A stretch of DNA of 15,888 nt, from contig CAMEMX010000009.1 of the NCBI GenBank assembly GCA_945927915.1, forward strand, positions 1-15,888, written 5' to 3'. Source of the stretch: an uncultured Clostridia bacterium. GTDB lineage: Bacteria > Bacillota > Clostridia > Oscillospirales > Oscillospiraceae. Below, one piece after another: positions 8,960-15,396 of this stretch. A model generated the notes under the pieces. It was not told the DNA's origin and searched no databases. It saw nothing but the letters and a program-made list of their open reading frames with translations. Every line of letters starts with the position of its first letter. Positions within the stretch are counted from its first letter, which is position 1. A program made the translations under genes and the position numbers.

Positions 8960-10207
8960 TTAACCGCCGGAGCGGTCGATGTTGACGGGGGAGCAGAACA
9001 TCACGATAACGATGTCGGGCTGCAGCTCGTCGCGGTAGGCGTCGAGGCTGCCGTCAAAGTTGCCGTTGGCCTGCCGCACGTCGATCATATCCAGGCGGCT
9101 GCAAAGCAGCGACAGGTAGGGCGCGACGACGGTGGAATACGAGTCGTGGATCAGCAGCACGCGCGGCCCGTCGGGGTTTTGCGAGTTGGTGATGCGCGTG
9201 AGCGGGCGGTTGCCGCAAAGCACGGCCTCATAGAGGCTGGCGGCGTAATAATCCGTCTCGGAGAGCATTTCGCGGTCGAACATCACGTCGGAAAAACTGC
9301 CCTGTACGTCGACGACCTTGTCCGGATGCTCCACGCGCAGCTCTGTCTCGAAATCGGGCACAACGAGGGTGAACTCGTCGGGCGAAATGTAGCCGCGCGT
9401 CACCTTGCGGCCCTGCGTGCCAAGGTAGCGGTTGGGCAGGGTCGTTTCGGAAAAGTTTTCCGCGGAGAGAAGCGAGGTGTCGAGGTCGAAGCCGCGCTCG
9501 CTGACGGCTCCTGCCACGGTTCGCGCCGCCCAAAGCCCGGCTGCCATCGTCCAGTGGTGGTCGGTGCGGAAATACAGACCGTAATGCGACAGACCGTCCG
9601 CGTGCAGCGCCTGCCGCAGGTCAAGCGTGTCCACGCCGCCCGCTTCAAGCAGGGCGAGGTGGCGGTCGAGGTTCTGGTTGATGTAGCTCAGCTCGCCGGG
9701 CGGCATCTGGTCGTCATATTGGCAGACCTTCTGCGGCACCTGCACATACAGAAGCGGGATGCCGGCTTTCTCCGTTGCGTCCGCGAAGCGCACGACGCTG
9801 TCCGCGATCTGCGACTGCGTCTGCGCGTCGGTCTGCTCGACGATGGTCGTCAGATAGCCGTTGTTCAGCAGGACGATCTCGTCGGTTTTTGTCTGAAAGG
9901 TCGCCCGGCGGAACGCGCCGCACAGCTCCAGCAGGCGCTGCCGTCCGAGCAGATGCTCCCGGCTGCCGTCGAGCCGCGCTTGGAAGTCAGTGATCCGGTC
10001 GAGTACGGTCTGTTCCCGCGCTGGCGCCTGCGCCTGTTCGGGCGCGGGCGTGTCGAAGGGGTAAAGCGCACGCCAGTCGACCGTCTGCGCGGTTTCCTGC
10101 GGCGCTTTTCCGGCAAAAAATTCGCCGAAGAGCATCGACCCGCCGCCGACAAAGAGCAGGGCGAGTACGCAGACGCATAGCAAATTGGTGGGGGTAAATC
10201 GTTTCAT
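8960..10207 (-). CDS. AlgJ/AlgX-like SGNH-type acetyltransferase partner protein (DHHW family)
   Basis: A 415-residue protein with an N-terminal hydrophobic signal anchor (about 8-28, NLLCVCVLALLFVGGGSMLF), so the catalytic part is expected outside the membrane. The family signature DHHW is at 216-219 in YFRTDHHWTMAAG, and the conserved H354-D355-S356 is in LLIHDSYST near the C terminus. DHHW/AlgJ/AlgX proteins work with MBOAT proteins to O-acetylate secreted polysaccharides, and here the MBOAT gene lies 10 nt upstream. The ATG at 10207 has GAGGAAG at its ribosome-binding position, overlapping the MBOAT stop, so translation is probably coupled. The polymer modified is unknown; no polysaccharide synthesis genes are in the window. 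Confidence 0.88.
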   Translation of the reverse strand: MKRFTPTNLLCVCVLALLFVGGGSMLFGEFFAGKAPQETAQTVDWRALYPFDTPAPEQAQAPAREQTVLDRITDFQARLDGSREHLLGRQRLLELCGAFRRATFQTKTDEIVLLNNGYLTTIVEQTDAQTQSQIADSVVRFADATEKAGIPLLYVQVPQKVCQYDDQMPPGELSYINQNLDRHLALLEAGGVDTLDLRQALHADGLSHYGLYFRTDHHWTMAAGLWAARTVAGAVSERGFDLDTSLLSAENFSETTLPNRYLGTQGRKVTRGYISPDEFTLVVPDFETELRVEHPDKVVDVQGSFSDVMFDREMLSETDYYAASLYEAVLCGNRPLTRITNSQNPDGPRVLLIHDSYSTVVAPYLSLLCSRLDMIDVRQANGNFDGSLDAYRDELQPDIVIVMFCSPVNIDRSGG

Positions 10208-10217
10208 GGCGGCTTCC

Positions 10218-11603
10218 TCAAAAGTTGAAATAGATGAACGGGTCGTAGGTGCTGCTCAGGATGAAGCCCACGGTCAGCAGGAAGACCAGAAGCTGGAACA
10301 GCGCCGCGAGGTACTGCGCGGCGGGCCTTTGCGCGAAGCGCCGCTTTTTCAGCCACGGCACGAGCGGGAAGCTCAGCACACCGCCGAGCAGGAAATAGAC
10401 GAAGCCGTTCGTGAGAGCGCTGCTCGTCGCGCCGCTCCAAAGCCCGCAGGGCGCACGGAAGAACAGGGCGCGGAAGTATTCGCCCGCCGCGCCGAGCGAG
10501 ACGGCGCGGAACAGCACCCAGCACAGCCCGACCGCCAAAAGCGTGTAGGCGCGGCCCAAAAGCGACGGCAGGCGCTGCAGAGGCGTGTATTTTTCGAGCA
10601 TCAGCAGGACGAAGTAGGTCAGACCCCAGAGCAGGAACGTCCAGTTTGCGCCGTGCCAGAGACCCGTCAGGAGCCAGACCGCAAAGAGGTTGAACAGATG
10701 CCGCGCCGGACGGACGCGGTTGCCGCCGAGCGGGATGTAAACATAGTCGCGGAACCAGCTCGAAAGCGAGATGTGCCAGCGCCGCCAGAAGTCGGTGACG
10801 CTCCGCGCGGCGTAGGGATAGTTGAAGTTTTCGTTGAAACGGAAGCCGAACATCCGCCCGAGGCCAATGGCCATGTCGGAATAGCCGGAGAAGTCGAAGT
10901 AGATCTGCAGAGCGTAGGCGCCCATGCCCAGCCACGCAAGGCCGGTGGTCAGTGCGCCGCCGTCAAAGGCGAGGTCGGCGGTTTTGGCGAGGTTGTTCGC
11001 CAAAATGACCTTTTTCGCCAGACCCCAGAGGAAGCGGCGCAGCCCCTCGGAAAAATCCGTCCAGCTTTCCCGCCGCGCGACGATCTGCTCCGCGACCGTC
11101 TCATACCGGACGATCGGCCCGGCGATGAGCTGCGGGAAGCAGGCGATGTACAGCCCGACGTGCAGCAGGTTCTTCTGCGCGAGGGCGGGCTTGCGCTTGA
11201 CGTCGATGACGTAGGACAGCGCCTGGAAGGTGTAAAACGAGATGCCGATGGGCAGCTCCAGCCCCGCCAGCGTCAGCGTCAGACCCAGCAGGTTGTTGCA
11301 GTTCGTGATGGCAAAATCGAGGTATTTGAACACGAACAGTACCGCGAGGTTGAACACGGAGGCGCAGGCGACGACGGCGTTGCCGTTCTTCCCCGCACCG
11401 ATGGCAAGGCCGAACAGCCAGTTGACGGCGATGGAGGCGAGCATCAGAAGGACATAGACCGGCTCACCCCACGCGTAGAACGCGACGCTTGCGAGGAACA
11501 AAAACGCGTTGCGGAAGCCGCGGCCGCGCACAAGCGGATTGTAGTAGACGAGCAGCGTCAGGGGCAGAAACAGAAACAGAAAGGTGGCGGATGAGAAAAC
11601 CAT
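10218..11603 (-). CDS. MBOAT family O-acyltransferase, AlgI-like
   Basis: A 461-residue polytopic membrane protein beginning FSSATFLFLFLPLTLLVYY, typical of AlgI/DltB-like MBOAT proteins. Diagnostic segments are LPIGISFYTFQALSYVIDV, FPQLIAGPIVRY, IYFDFSGYSDMAIG, FWRRWHISLSSWFRDYVYIP (H277) and the active-site region LTGLWHGANWTF (H317, the invariant MBOAT histidine). It should carry acyl groups across the membrane for transfer to an extracellular glycan by the DHHW partner encoded next. The ATG at 11603 has AAGGAG 6 nt upstream, overlapping the stop codon of the GTPase-ribonuclease gene (10-nt gap), which places it in that operon. Confidence 0.94.
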   Translation of the reverse strand: MVFSSATFLFLFLPLTLLVYYNPLVRGRGFRNAFLFLASVAFYAWGEPVYVLLMLASIAVNWLFGLAIGAGKNGNAVVACASVFNLAVLFVFKYLDFAITNCNNLLGLTLTLAGLELPIGISFYTFQALSYVIDVKRKPALAQKNLLHVGLYIACFPQLIAGPIVRYETVAEQIVARRESWTDFSEGLRRFLWGLAKKVILANNLAKTADLAFDGGALTTGLAWLGMGAYALQIYFDFSGYSDMAIGLGRMFGFRFNENFNYPYAARSVTDFWRRWHISLSSWFRDYVYIPLGGNRVRPARHLFNLFAVWLLTGLWHGANWTFLLWGLTYFVLLMLEKYTPLQRLPSLLGRAYTLLAVGLCWVLFRAVSLGAAGEYFRALFFRAPCGLWSGATSSALTNGFVYFLLGGVLSFPLVPWLKKRRFAQRPAAQYLAALFQLLVFLLTVGFILSSTYDPFIYFNF

Positions 11604-11613
11604 GGCTTGCTCC

Positions 11614-14199
11614 TTACGTCGGATCGGGCAGATTTTGCAGCGGGCTGTGCTGCACGGCGGCGCGACGGGCCTCGGCGTGCAGCGCGCGGATGACGGCGGC
11701 GATCTTTTCGTTGGTGCGTTCGATCTCGCCCAGAAGCTCGTTCGCCGACACGCGCAAAACGCCGCTTCTGAGCGCCGAGAGCTGGATGAGCGCGTCGCTC
11801 GTCGCCACGCGGACGCGGTAGTTTTTGCCGATTTTGCCGACGAGCGTTTCGATATAGAGGTCGGCGCTCTCGTTTTCCTTCGTATAGACCACGCGGAGGT
11901 TGTCGCGCCGCGTCTTCGCGCCGAGGCCGCCCTTGACGCGGTAGCTGTCGAAGACGACCACCGTCTCGCAGGGGTGGAAGCCGCAGAAGTTGCTTAAAAT
12001 GTCCAAAAGCCGCTCCCTTGCGCCGGAGAGGTCGCTTTGCGCCTGTTCGCGCAGACCGTCCCACGCGAAGATCATGTTGTAGCCGTCGACGATCAGATAT
12101 TCCTGCTTATGCGGCGGGAGGGAGACGGTCTCCTGCGAGGTCTGCACGGGCGGGCGGTAGAGCGTGCGTTTTTCCGGGCCGAACTCCCGCTCGATGATTT
12201 TTTGCAGCTCCCGCTCGTCGAGGTCGACGTTCTGCGTGCGCACGCGGACGGGTGGCGGCGCGTCGTCCTTCGCCTCGCGCAGGACGCTTTCCAAGTGCAT
12301 ATAAGACGGCACATCATTCCACTTGACATTCATGCCCGCGCCGTGCGAGCAGAAGACGGAATCGGGCGTGTTATCCACGTCGGCTTCGGGGTCGTAGGCC
12401 GCTTCTTCGATGATCTTCTGCGCGTTGTGGCAGGGGGCGTAGCCCTCGACCTCGCAGACGAGCTTGCCCTGTCCGCGCGTGTAGGCGACGACCTCGGACA
12501 TATAAGACTGCATCTCGGATACGGGCGCACTGCCCTCCAGAACGGTCAGAGCGCCGTCCTGCTCCGGCGCACCGAACGTGCCGCCCATGGCGCGCAGGTC
12601 GTTGATGGCGCGGCCGAGCTGCGCCGCAGGCACGCTGAGGCGGAAGCGGTAGTAAGGCTCCAGAAGGACGCTCTGCGCCTGCATCAGCCCCTGCCGCACG
12701 GCGCGGTAGGTCGCCTGACGGAAGTCGCCGCCCTCGGTGTGCTTGAGGTGGGCGCGTCCCGCCGCGAGGGTGAGCTTCATATCGGTGACCGGCGACCCGG
12801 TCAGGACGCCGAGGTGTGTTTTTTCCTCCAGATGGGTCAAGATCAGGCGCTGCCAGTTGCGCTCGAGCACATCCTCGGAGCAGATGCTGTCAAATTGCAG
12901 TCCGCTGCCGCGCGGCAGGGGAGAGAGGAGCAGATGCACCTCCGCATAGTGGCGCAGCGGCTCAAAGTGCCCGACGCCCTCGACGGTGTCCGTGATCGTC
13001 TCGCGGTAGGAAACGCGCCCGCCGTCGATGGCGACGTCGAGGCCGAAGCGCTCCGCAATGAGCGCCTTCAGTACCTCGATCTGCACCTGTCCCATGAGCT
13101 GGGCGTGGATCTCGCGCAGACGCTCGTCCCAGACGATGCGAAGCTGCGGTTCCTCTTCTTCCAGTTCGCGCAGCCTGGGAAGCACCGTGCGCACGTCCGC
13201 ACCTGCGGGCAGGCCGATGCGGTAGGTCATCACGGGCGCAAGCAGCGCGCTTTTGCCCTCCGCCTGTGCGCCGAGACAGTCGCCCGCCAGAAGGGAGGAA
13301 AGTCCCGTGACCGCGCAGACCGTACCCGCCGGGGCAAGCTCCGCCGGCACGAAGTCCGCGCCGGAATACAGGCGGATCTGCGTGACCTTTTCCTCGATCG
13401 GTTCGCCGCCGCGCGGGGTATAGGCAATGGGCATCCGCACGCGCAGAGTGCCGCCCGTGACCTTCAGGAAGGTCAGGCGGTTGCCCTGCGCGTCGCGGGC
13501 GATCTTGTACACCCGTGCGGCAAATTCGTCCGGGTAATACGGCTGGGCGGTAAAGCGCTCCAAAGCGGACAGCAGCTCGTCCACGCCGTCTAAATGCAGG
13601 GCCGCACCGAACAGGCAGGGGAAGAATTTCTCCTGCGCCCAGAGCGCGGCGACCGTCTCGTCCGGCAGGCTGCCGTTCGTCAGATAAGCGTCCAAAGCTG
13701 CCTCATCGCAGAGCGCAATGCTGTCAAGATCGCTCAATTCCGCGCATAATTCGCTCAAATGCGCCTTTGCGTCCTCCAACAGGCGCGTTTTGTCCGCGCC
13801 GGGGAGATCCATTTTGTTAAAAAACAGCAGGGTCGGGACATGATAGCGGCGCAGCAGCTTCCAAAGCGTTTCGGTGTGCGCCTGCACGCCGTCGGTACCG
13901 CTGACGACCAGGATCGCGTAATCCGGCACGGTCATGGCGCGCTCCGCCTCGGGCGCGAAATCGACGTGGCCGGGCGTATCGACGAAGGTGACGGCGAGCC
14001 GCTCCGTCTGAAAGCGCGCCTGCTTGGAAAAGATCGTGATGCCCCGCGCACGCTCTAAGCTGTGATTGTCCAGAAACGCGTCGCCGTGGTCGACCCGACC
14101 GAGCTGCCGGCGCTGACCGGAGCGGTAGAGCAGCGCCTCGGACAGCGTCGTCTTGCCCGCGTCCACGGGCGCGAAAATGCCTAATACGATATGCTTCAT
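11614..14199 (-). CDS. Tet(M)/EF-G-like translational GTPase fused to a C-terminal NYN (YacP/Rae1-type) ribonuclease domain
   Basis: An 861-residue protein; Tet(M)-type proteins are about 640. Residues 1 to about 660 are the ribosomal-protection GTPase: G1 APVDAGKTT (10-18), G2 RGITI (52-56), G3 DTPGH (74-78), G4 NKMD (128-131), then the EF-G-like later domains (GVLTGSPVTDMKLTLAAGRA; MQSYMSEVVAYTRGQGKL). Residues about 700-845 form an NYN/PIN-like nuclease: D705 and N708 in VDGYNMIF, D751 in VVVFDSY, D780 in ESADLYIE and D802 in VATSD, matching the acidic set of YacP/Rae1, which cuts mRNA in the ribosomal A site. G1 has Pro11 where EF-G and Tet(M) have His (GHVD/AHVD). The ATG at 14199 lacks a Shine-Dalgarno, and an in-frame TAA lies 3 codons upstream, so translation probably depends on the leader ORF whose stop overlaps it. 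It is followed by MBOAT/DHHW genes. The fusion is certain; a role in tetracycline resistance is doubtful. Confidence 0.92.
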   Translation of the reverse strand: MKHIVLGIFAPVDAGKTTLSEALLYRSGQRRQLGRVDHGDAFLDNHSLERARGITIFSKQARFQTERLAVTFVDTPGHVDFAPEAERAMTVPDYAILVVSGTDGVQAHTETLWKLLRRYHVPTLLFFNKMDLPGADKTRLLEDAKAHLSELCAELSDLDSIALCDEAALDAYLTNGSLPDETVAALWAQEKFFPCLFGAALHLDGVDELLSALERFTAQPYYPDEFAARVYKIARDAQGNRLTFLKVTGGTLRVRMPIAYTPRGGEPIEEKVTQIRLYSGADFVPAELAPAGTVCAVTGLSSLLAGDCLGAQAEGKSALLAPVMTYRIGLPAGADVRTVLPRLRELEEEEPQLRIVWDERLREIHAQLMGQVQIEVLKALIAERFGLDVAIDGGRVSYRETITDTVEGVGHFEPLRHYAEVHLLLSPLPRGSGLQFDSICSEDVLERNWQRLILTHLEEKTHLGVLTGSPVTDMKLTLAAGRAHLKHTEGGDFRQATYRAVRQGLMQAQSVLLEPYYRFRLSVPAAQLGRAINDLRAMGGTFGAPEQDGALTVLEGSAPVSEMQSYMSEVVAYTRGQGKLVCEVEGYAPCHNAQKIIEEAAYDPEADVDNTPDSVFCSHGAGMNVKWNDVPSYMHLESVLREAKDDAPPPVRVRTQNVDLDERELQKIIEREFGPEKRTLYRPPVQTSQETVSLPPHKQEYLIVDGYNMIFAWDGLREQAQSDLSGARERLLDILSNFCGFHPCETVVVFDSYRVKGGLGAKTRRDNLRVVYTKENESADLYIETLVGKIGKNYRVRVATSDALIQLSALRSGVLRVSANELLGEIERTNEKIAAVIRALHAEARRAAVQHSPLQNLPDPT

Positions 14200-14225
14200 C
14201 GGAAATTAAGAGAAGTAAGCGGCAT
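14196..14225 (-). CDS. Candidate 9-residue leader peptide MPLTSLNFR upstream of the GTPase-ribonuclease gene
   Basis: ATG at 14223-14225 with AGGAGG (14231-14236) 5 nt upstream, nine codons, and a TGA that overlaps the downstream ATG as ATGA. The downstream gene has no ribosome-binding site of its own, so this short frame may deliver ribosomes to it by termination-reinitiation. There is no run of rare or repeated codons pointing to amino-acid attenuation, and no terminator between the two. Tet(M)-type genes often have short leader peptides, which makes a regulatory role plausible. Confidence 0.55.
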   Translation of the reverse strand: MPLTSLNFR

Positions 14226-14255
14226 AATTGCCTCCTGTTGTGTTCAGAGTTTCTC

Positions 14256-14310: not shown

Positions 14311-15396
14311 ATGTTTTCACTCAAGCCCTATTTCCCGCCCGATTTTTCCGAGGCGAGATTTCAAAACGCGCCCGAGGCCGTCTTAACGCCCGCGCCCTTT
14401 GACGGCGTTGCGCCGGAGCATTACCACGCCATGAGCATCTTCCCCGAGTATTTCAAGATCGGGGGTCAGTGGCTTCTGGCGGAGGAGAGCCGCATGGACT
14501 GCGTGGCGGTCTACGAAAACGGGAAGATCGTCGTGCGCGAATTCCGCCTGCTGAAACAGGGCGACCTGGTCGTCACCGGCCGGACGGAGAACTGCGAGGA
14601 AGGCATCTATATGTATCCCGACGGCTTCCGCGAGCAGAAGGCGGAGAAGGATGTCTTTGCCTTCCGGCAGAACCGCTCGCGCGAGACGGCGTTCTCCCGC
14701 GATTATGACGAGCTTTACGAGCTGCTCAAATACGAGCGCGACCATGGCAAGATCGTCTGGGTCATGGGCCCGGCCTTCGCCTTCGACGCCGACGCACGAC
14801 GCGCCATGTCGAAGCTGATCGAAAACGGCTATGTCCACGCGGTTTTGGCGGGCAACGCCCTTGCCACGCACGACCTGGAGGGCGCCTATCTGCGCACGGC
14901 GCTCGGACAGGACATCTACACGCAGGAGTCCATGCCGAACGGGCACTATAACCACCTCGACCTCATCAACCGCGTGCGCTACCACGGCAGCATCAAGGCG
15001 TTCATCGAAAACGAGCACATCGACAACGGCATCATCTATAGCTGCGAAAAGTGCGGCGTGCCCTATGTCCTCGGCGGCTCCATCCGCGACGACGGCCCGC
15101 TGCCTCCGGTCTACGGCGATGTCTACGCCGCGCAGAACGCGATGCGCGATCAGATCCGCGGCGCGACGACGGTCATCTCGATGGCGACGATGCTGCACAC
15201 CATCGCCACGGGCAACATGACCCCGTCCTACCGCGTCCTGCCCGACGGCACGGTGCGGCAGATCTATTTCTACTGCGTCGACGTGTCGGAATTCGTCGTC
15301 AACAAGCTCGCCGACCGCGGCAGCCTGTCCGCCCGCGGCATCGTGACGAACGTGCAGGACTTCGTCGTGAACCTGCAAAAGGGCTTGGGACTGTAA
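14311..15396 (+). CDS. TIGR00300-type LOR/SDH domain protein (ArgZ/AgrE C-terminal-like, possible ornithine cyclodeaminase)
   Basis: A 361-residue protein with the LOR/SDH bifunctional-enzyme domain. Recognisable blocks are VMGPAFAFDADARRAMSKLI (about 150-170), VLAGNALATHDLEGAYL, MPNGHYNHLDLINRVR, CEKCGVPYVLGGSIRDDGPLP (C245, C248) and RGATTVISMATMLHTIATGNMTPS. In cyanobacterial AgrE/ArgZ the matching C-terminal domain, and in methanogens the stand-alone protein, convert ornithine to proline plus ammonia with NAD, so that is the best guess. The ATG at 14311 follows AAAGGAGAGAAGCG. It is transcribed divergently from the GTPase-ribonuclease gene and is alone on its strand. No ArgZ-type guanidine-modifying domain is attached. 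The family is fairly sure; the substrate is not. Confidence 0.78.
   Translation: MFSLKPYFPPDFSEARFQNAPEAVLTPAPFDGVAPEHYHAMSIFPEYFKIGGQWLLAEESRMDCVAVYENGKIVVREFRLLKQGDLVVTGRTENCEEGIYMYPDGFREQKAEKDVFAFRQNRSRETAFSRDYDELYELLKYERDHGKIVWVMGPAFAFDADARRAMSKLIENGYVHAVLAGNALATHDLEGAYLRTALGQDIYTQESMPNGHYNHLDLINRVRYHGSIKAFIENEHIDNGIIYSCEKCGVPYVLGGSIRDDGPLPPVYGDVYAAQNAMRDQIRGATTVISMATMLHTIATGNMTPSYRVLPDGTVRQIYFYCVDVSEFVVNKLADRGSLSARGIVTNVQDFVVNLQKGLGL

Follow-up and report, generated by a model that had tools for sequence, protein, structure and literature searches.

A clostridial translational GTPase fused to a Rae1/YacP-type NYN domain as a candidate ribosome-directed endoribonuclease

A stretch of 15,888 nucleotides from an uncultured Clostridia bacterium of the Oscillospiraceae (GCA_945927915.1, contig CAMEMX010000009.1; hereafter the window, meaning the whole stretch analysed) carries a gene in which an EF-G-like translational GTPase is joined to a C-terminal nuclease domain of the Rae1/YacP (NYN) type. 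The frame is real: it runs on the minus strand from an ATG through 861 uninterrupted codons and a stop, giving a protein of 861 aa, while the plus strand across the same interval is broken by stops. A preliminary description made from the letters had reported this frame, giving no strand, and had read it as a GTPase followed by a Rae1-type nuclease, a reading borne out by the Pfam domain search (Table 1) and by the Rae1 fold of the C-terminal domain. Because PF05991 is present in all of the best 120 of at least 7998 scored database hits, an assembly artefact is ruled out. The combination of an EF-G/Tet-type GTPase with a C-terminal YacP-like NYN domain is that of the fusions published from Clostridiales in 2015 (PMC4342817), and the window adds a further member.

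The nuclease half resembles Rae1/YacP of Bacillus subtilis (PDB 5mq8, 5mq9) in fold, in catalytic residues and in being present, as a rule, once per genome. Unlike Rae1, it is joined to a GTPase, and at the loci examined it no longer lies between rlmB and sigH. The NYN_YacP match scores 137.5 bits against a cut-off of 24.6. Residues D705, N708, D751, D780 and D802, the set named in the preliminary description, are present and, like E784, are identical in 169/169 fused proteins (the window's protein, 48 locus translations and 120 database proteins, the last being the best-listed relatives at 67–98% identity and so not independent); the five columns of the set are also invariant across 56 fused and stand-alone rows. 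In the GTPase, Lys16 is kept in all 169 proteins and His78 in 168. Since the nuclease set, Lys16 and His78 are conserved across fused proteins, both enzymes look active. Pro11, earlier taken as the sign of a specialised GTPase, loses that meaning, as residue 11 is Q in 111 of the 169 proteins, H in 46 and P in 9. The acidic linker reported between the two halves survives in part: residues 641–700 are mostly disordered, with a predicted local distance difference test score (pLDDT) below 50 at 643–660 and 674–695 of the predicted structure, but they hold about 12 acidic and 11 basic residues by manual count, and residues 590–634 form a conserved extension that is predicted with confidence.

The GTPase half is neither a curated Tet protein nor an EF-G. 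On the NCBIfam model tet_protect the window's protein scores 392.3 bits against a cut-off of 775; ten matches (in 8 of 118 class genomes) exceed that cut-off, with 819–1001 bits among the matches listed, and fusion-family members score about 366–467, again among the matches listed. Because seven EF-Gs of the class score 358–395 bits, the window's protein is no more Tet-like on this model than a true EF-G. On TIGR00484, the EF-G model, it has 242 bits (cut-off 659.4) vs. 1159–1213 for the same seven EF-Gs, and its own genome encodes a separate EF-G with 1177.6 bits (contig C47, L184). Its identity is 39–48% to relatives of the class that lack the NYN domain (NYN-less), 30–32% to Tets and 24–27% over the length of six of the seven EF-Gs, the seventh being aligned over 143 residues only. 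Passages of PMC8161019 place Pro509 of TetM in the drug site at the tip of domain IV, which reaches the A-site drug pocket. The corresponding column is K in 27/29 fused (K486 in the window) and 17/17 NYN-less proteins, and P in 5/7 of the Tet comparison set, which comprises five proteins over the curated cut-off and two under it (L192, 561 bits; L181, 417 bits). This Lys is followed by HTxGGDF in nearly all fused and NYN-less members, and column 484 holds an EF-G-like His in 28/29 and 17/17 of them, respectively. The fusion thus shares with Tet(M)/Tet(O) an EF-G-like five-domain GTPase, but has the tip KHTxGGDF instead of SPVSTPxDF (5/7 of the Tet set) and adds a Cys-containing C-terminal extension and the NYN domain.

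In a tree of 60 GTPases, 29 fused rows (support 99/95) and 17 NYN-less rows (89/63) are sisters, together at 100/99, and stand apart from the 7 Tet and 7 EF-G rows. The tree omits L152–L161, as repeats of L192–L197 and L166 or as further Tets (L155, L157–L159), and includes L203, whose long branch makes its placement unsure. Curated cut-off, tip residue and tree support the view that the fusion GTPase represents a separate subfamily and is not a bona fide tetracycline resistance protein, in keeping with the earlier opinion that it is no drug-resistance determinant. Two fused members from f6 genomes, L202 and L203, are very divergent: in L202 the tip GG is replaced by PP and C617 by F, and in L203 C617 is replaced by T.

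A second mark of the subfamily is the extension GYxPCHN...SVFCxHGAG, which NYN-less members also carry; in the genomes that encode these proteins, its profile matched none of the true Tet or EF-G genes. With none of the 17 NYN-less rows of the class inside the fused clade, the class GTPase tree supports a single origin of the fusion, subject to the Ligilactobacillus protein considered below. In a tree of NYN domains (26 fused and 41 stand-alone rows, 58 different in all), all 26 fused rows form one group with the stand-alone rows of genomes G209 and G140 (100/100); the fused rows are not strictly one clade there, and one origin is recovered in 12% of bootstrap trees. The stand-alone NYN of G209, which reaches 61% identity to the NYN domains of fused proteins, may have separated later; no cysS, mrnC, thyX, rlmB or sigH was found in its 11-kb locus.

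The census of the fusion against separate yacP that the preliminary description had called for shows a near one-for-one exchange. Among 293 class genomes, the window's included, 104 have the fusion, 88 a stand-alone YacP, one has both and 102 have neither; the fusion occurs in 24 families, the stand-alone form in 31 and both forms in 6. Fusions at contig edges or with broken frames (G044, G062, G071, G156, G172, G185, G190, G235) were counted as fused and the 342 aa frame of G286 as stand-alone; a 27-residue fragment under the cut-off in G261 was not counted as stand-alone. Of 199 genomes drawn from the phylum, 109 exceed the cut-off with one copy each, 12 as fused and 97 as short frames. The window's own assembly (85% complete) has a single NYN_YacP copy, the fusion. 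Of 19 stand-alone yacP loci, 18 also contain sigH, 17 rlmB and 15 mrnC. A sigH search in 20 fused-type genomes gave a match in 17 (E < 1e-30), nine of them with rlmB within the 1.5-kb flank, and in seven of these nine loci no yacP lies between the two genes. At this site the fused-type genome G022 has a decay remnant, a yacP interrupted by stop codons and a change of frame, and G284, the only genome with both forms, has an intact yacP. Conversely, G206, with a stand-alone YacP, retains a 54-residue scrap of the fusion. These two remnants, one per direction, say more than the census counts. In the genomes compared, the fusion nearly always replaces a separate YacP. As a side observation, in G191 the fusion (L036, 5780–8428) and sigH are no more than about 4 kb apart, close to the usual yacP site of other genomes.

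On balance, and with little better than even confidence, we take the fusion to be a ribosome-directed endoribonuclease with its own translational GTPase, used in place of free-standing Rae1 (YacP). In passages of PMC10100781, PMC6613710 and PMC12320835, Rae1 is presented as an endonuclease that depends on translation and works in the A site, probably that of stalled ribosomes. The NYN half most likely does the same job, given that the fusion takes the place of Rae1, and an action on stalled ribosomes gains from the near one-for-one exchange. The GTPase half most likely binds the ribosomal site used by EF-G-like factors, because its catalytic residues are kept and its EF-G-like domain IV has a conserved tip of its own. 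In such a scheme, the GTP-bound EF-G-like module would bind the factor site of a stalled or slow ribosome with a vacant A site, and domain IV with its KHTxGGDF tip would occupy the decoding centre. GTP hydrolysis would release or shift the module, and the NYN domain on its 60-residue flexible tether could then enter the A site and cut the mRNA as Rae1 does, leaving a truncated message for decay and the ribosome for rescue. The long tether suggests a hand-over after hydrolysis, since domain IV and NYN cannot share the A site. A bolder version, possible but in our view not the probable one, is a GTP-driven A-site nuclease whose GTPase senses the vacant A site and, once GTP is hydrolysed, yields the decoding centre to the Rae1 domain on its tether. 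The fusion would then be a one-protein ribosome-surveillance factor that has displaced Rae1 in one third of the sampled class genomes, with NYN-less sisters that sense alone.

Several observations weigh against the proposal of a ribosome-directed nuclease in place of Rae1. NYN and domain IV cannot occupy the A site at once, so the scheme requires either a hand-over or a second molecule. The Fisher test for exclusion between fusion and stand-alone YacP (p 1e-19) ignores shared ancestry, and only f22, f23, f27, f28, f47 and f51 contain both forms, f51 solely through G284. With both forms missing from 102 of the 293 genomes, the function is dispensable. In one genus, three fused genomes (G120, G174, G208) have a second NYN_YacP match in a 163–165 aa frame that reaches 21 bits, below the threshold, and was not counted as stand-alone. 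The preference of NYN-less GTPases for genomes with stand-alone YacP is only a trend (13/20 vs. 74/170, p 0.096, where the 170 wrongly counts the window's own genome and would be 169 without it), so this co-occurrence does not support a necessary partnership of the two modules. Finally, a NYN-less member occurs outside Clostridia, on plasmid pMP118 of Ligilactobacillus salivarius UCC118 (WP_164920261.1). It shares with the fusion 49% identity over residues 1–637, the HTxGGDF tip and the extension (SVFCAHG), but stops before the tether, lacks the NYN domain and carries Val at the position of K486. A quick tree of 58 rows, built without L038, L181 and L203, places it with the fused rows (approximate likelihood ratio test, SH-aLRT, 96), so a strict loss-free history of the fusion is not upheld: either this lineage lost its NYN domain or it branched off before the fusion arose. 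Next to its gene (L230, 4402–6920) lie rpsN (S14) and a small gene with the annotation putative metal homeostasis protein.

The main rival to a ribosome-directed nuclease is that the protein combines two independent activities: the NYN domain would do the ordinary Rae1 job unaided, the GTPase would have another ribosomal task (back-translocation, recycling or something akin to hibernation), and the tether would keep both at the ribosome. NYN-less GTPases occur in 20 of the 293 genomes (G054, G203, G214 and G290 being assigned by frame length only), seven of which show no YacP match at all. According to passages of the three papers cited above, the Rae1 of B. subtilis works alone, and G209 has a free NYN of the fused type outside the usual yacP cluster. 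The L. salivarius grouping led us to raise our estimate for this explanation slightly. We still regard it as doubtful, as the fused form is kept across 104 genomes of 24 families and no NYN-less row of the class falls inside the fused clade. Less plausible again is a tetracycline ribosomal-protection protein whose GTPase evicts the drug and whose accessory RNase adds to resistance. Its attraction is plain, in that the best full-length sequence matches among solved structures are TetM and TetO, resistance is suggested in passages of PMC4342817, and database entries of the fusion's relatives are named TetM/TetW/TetO/TetS family (or translation factor GTPase family), much as the preliminary description had suspected. 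The EF-G-level score on tet_protect, the tip Lys, the separate clade and the low identity to Tets make it improbable, and G029 carries a true Tet as well as the fusion. A maturation factor that docks on pre-ribosomes and trims rRNA or tRNA precursors would fit the role proposed for NYN domains, as cited in a passage of PMC4342817, and the clustering of stand-alone yacP with rlmB and mrnC, but is very improbable given that fold and active site are those of Rae1, the characterised orthologue described as an A-site mRNA nuclease in passages of PMC6613710 and PMC12320835.

According to passages of PMC4342817 (Atkinson 2015), a YacP-like NYN RNase domain was acquired by Tet proteins in ten Clostridiales species, for which a new resistance mechanism is suggested. 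Those proteins have the same architecture as ours and apparently come from the same bacterial group. They were filed under Tet, whereas the GTPase analysed here falls outside curated Tet, lacks a Pro509 equivalent, has NYN-less sisters and, with its NYN domain, replaces stand-alone YacP. In a literature search judged mostly from titles and the starts of abstracts, with few subscription papers covered, only PMC4342817 among the papers listed was seen to mention the fusion, and no functional test of it was seen. What makes an experiment worthwhile is that the fusion replaces Rae1 and that its GTPase stands apart from Tet. As a natural fusion to an EF-G-like GTPase, it makes the recruitment of Rae1-type nucleases to the right ribosomes testable. 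Our data also suggest that clostridial proteins labelled as tetracycline resistance are often not such, which would distort resistome counts; if the GTP-driven A-site nuclease is true, proteins now filed there would constitute a class of rescue factor.

Table 1 Features of the fusion gene in the window, and additional weak NYN_YacP matches in three other fused genomes
Feature	Residues	Position	Strand	Basis
Whole fusion gene	1–861	11614..14199	minus	Frame, Pfam, database relatives
G domain	1–216	13552..14199	minus	GTP_EFTU (2–216), PF00009, 166 bits; G1 APVDAGKTT, G3 DTPGH (His78), NKMD
EF-G domain II	226–309	13273..13524	minus	EF-G_D2, PF22042, 30.3 bits
EF-G domain III	322–391	13027..13236	minus	EFG_III, PF14492, 22.1 bits (below 27-bit cut-off); domain order and EF-G fold of model
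Domain IV	394–509	12673..13020	minus	EFG_IV, PF03764, 70 bits
Domain IV tip	484–494	12718..12750	minus	H-L-KHTEGGDFR; K486 aligned with TetM Pro509
Domain V	511–593	12421..12669	minus	EFG_C, PF00679, 61.6 bits
Subfamily C-terminal extension	590–640	12280..12432	minus	GYxPCHN...SVFCxHGAG...W..V..MH; also in NYN-less relatives
Tether	641–700	12100..12279	minus	Mostly disordered, one helix 662–673
NYN_YacP/Rae1-type endoribonuclease domain	702–843	11671..12096	minus	NYN_YacP; D705, N708, D751, D780, D802
Second match, G120		C1:2323953		NYN_YacP, sub-threshold
Second match, G174		C1:2636501		NYN_YacP, sub-threshold
Second match, G208		C20:134518		NYN_YacP, sub-threshold

Two other settings for the fusion were considered and rejected. 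A defence system is suggested by a single PADLOC match, LeoA, with 20.5 bits over the GTPase part only (E 5e-5). The other setting is phage or plasmid cargo. Two records labelled Bacteriophage sp. contain fusion frames of 875 and 869 aa, among genes that look bacterial by eye; these unannotated records (L228 and L229; MT835563.1 and MT835514.1) hold the full fusion and read by eye as pieces of bacterial chromosome. Two near full-length fusions lie on large plasmids of Clostridia. A conserved operon was also sought, and no neighbour gene is common to more than 3 of 26 fused loci. In the window, the fusion is directly followed on the minus strand by genes for an MBOAT acyltransferase and an AlgX-like SGNH protein (8960–11603), and its divergent neighbour (14311–15396, plus strand) has Pfam matches limited to ArgZ-like C-terminal regions. 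Upstream of the fusion, an AGGAGG at 14231–14236 (minus) precedes a 9-codon frame, MPLTSLNFR (14196–14225), whose TGA overlaps the fusion's ATG. By eye, no such arrangement is obvious ahead of the other genes inspected; in the window, the short frame could be a translationally coupled leader.
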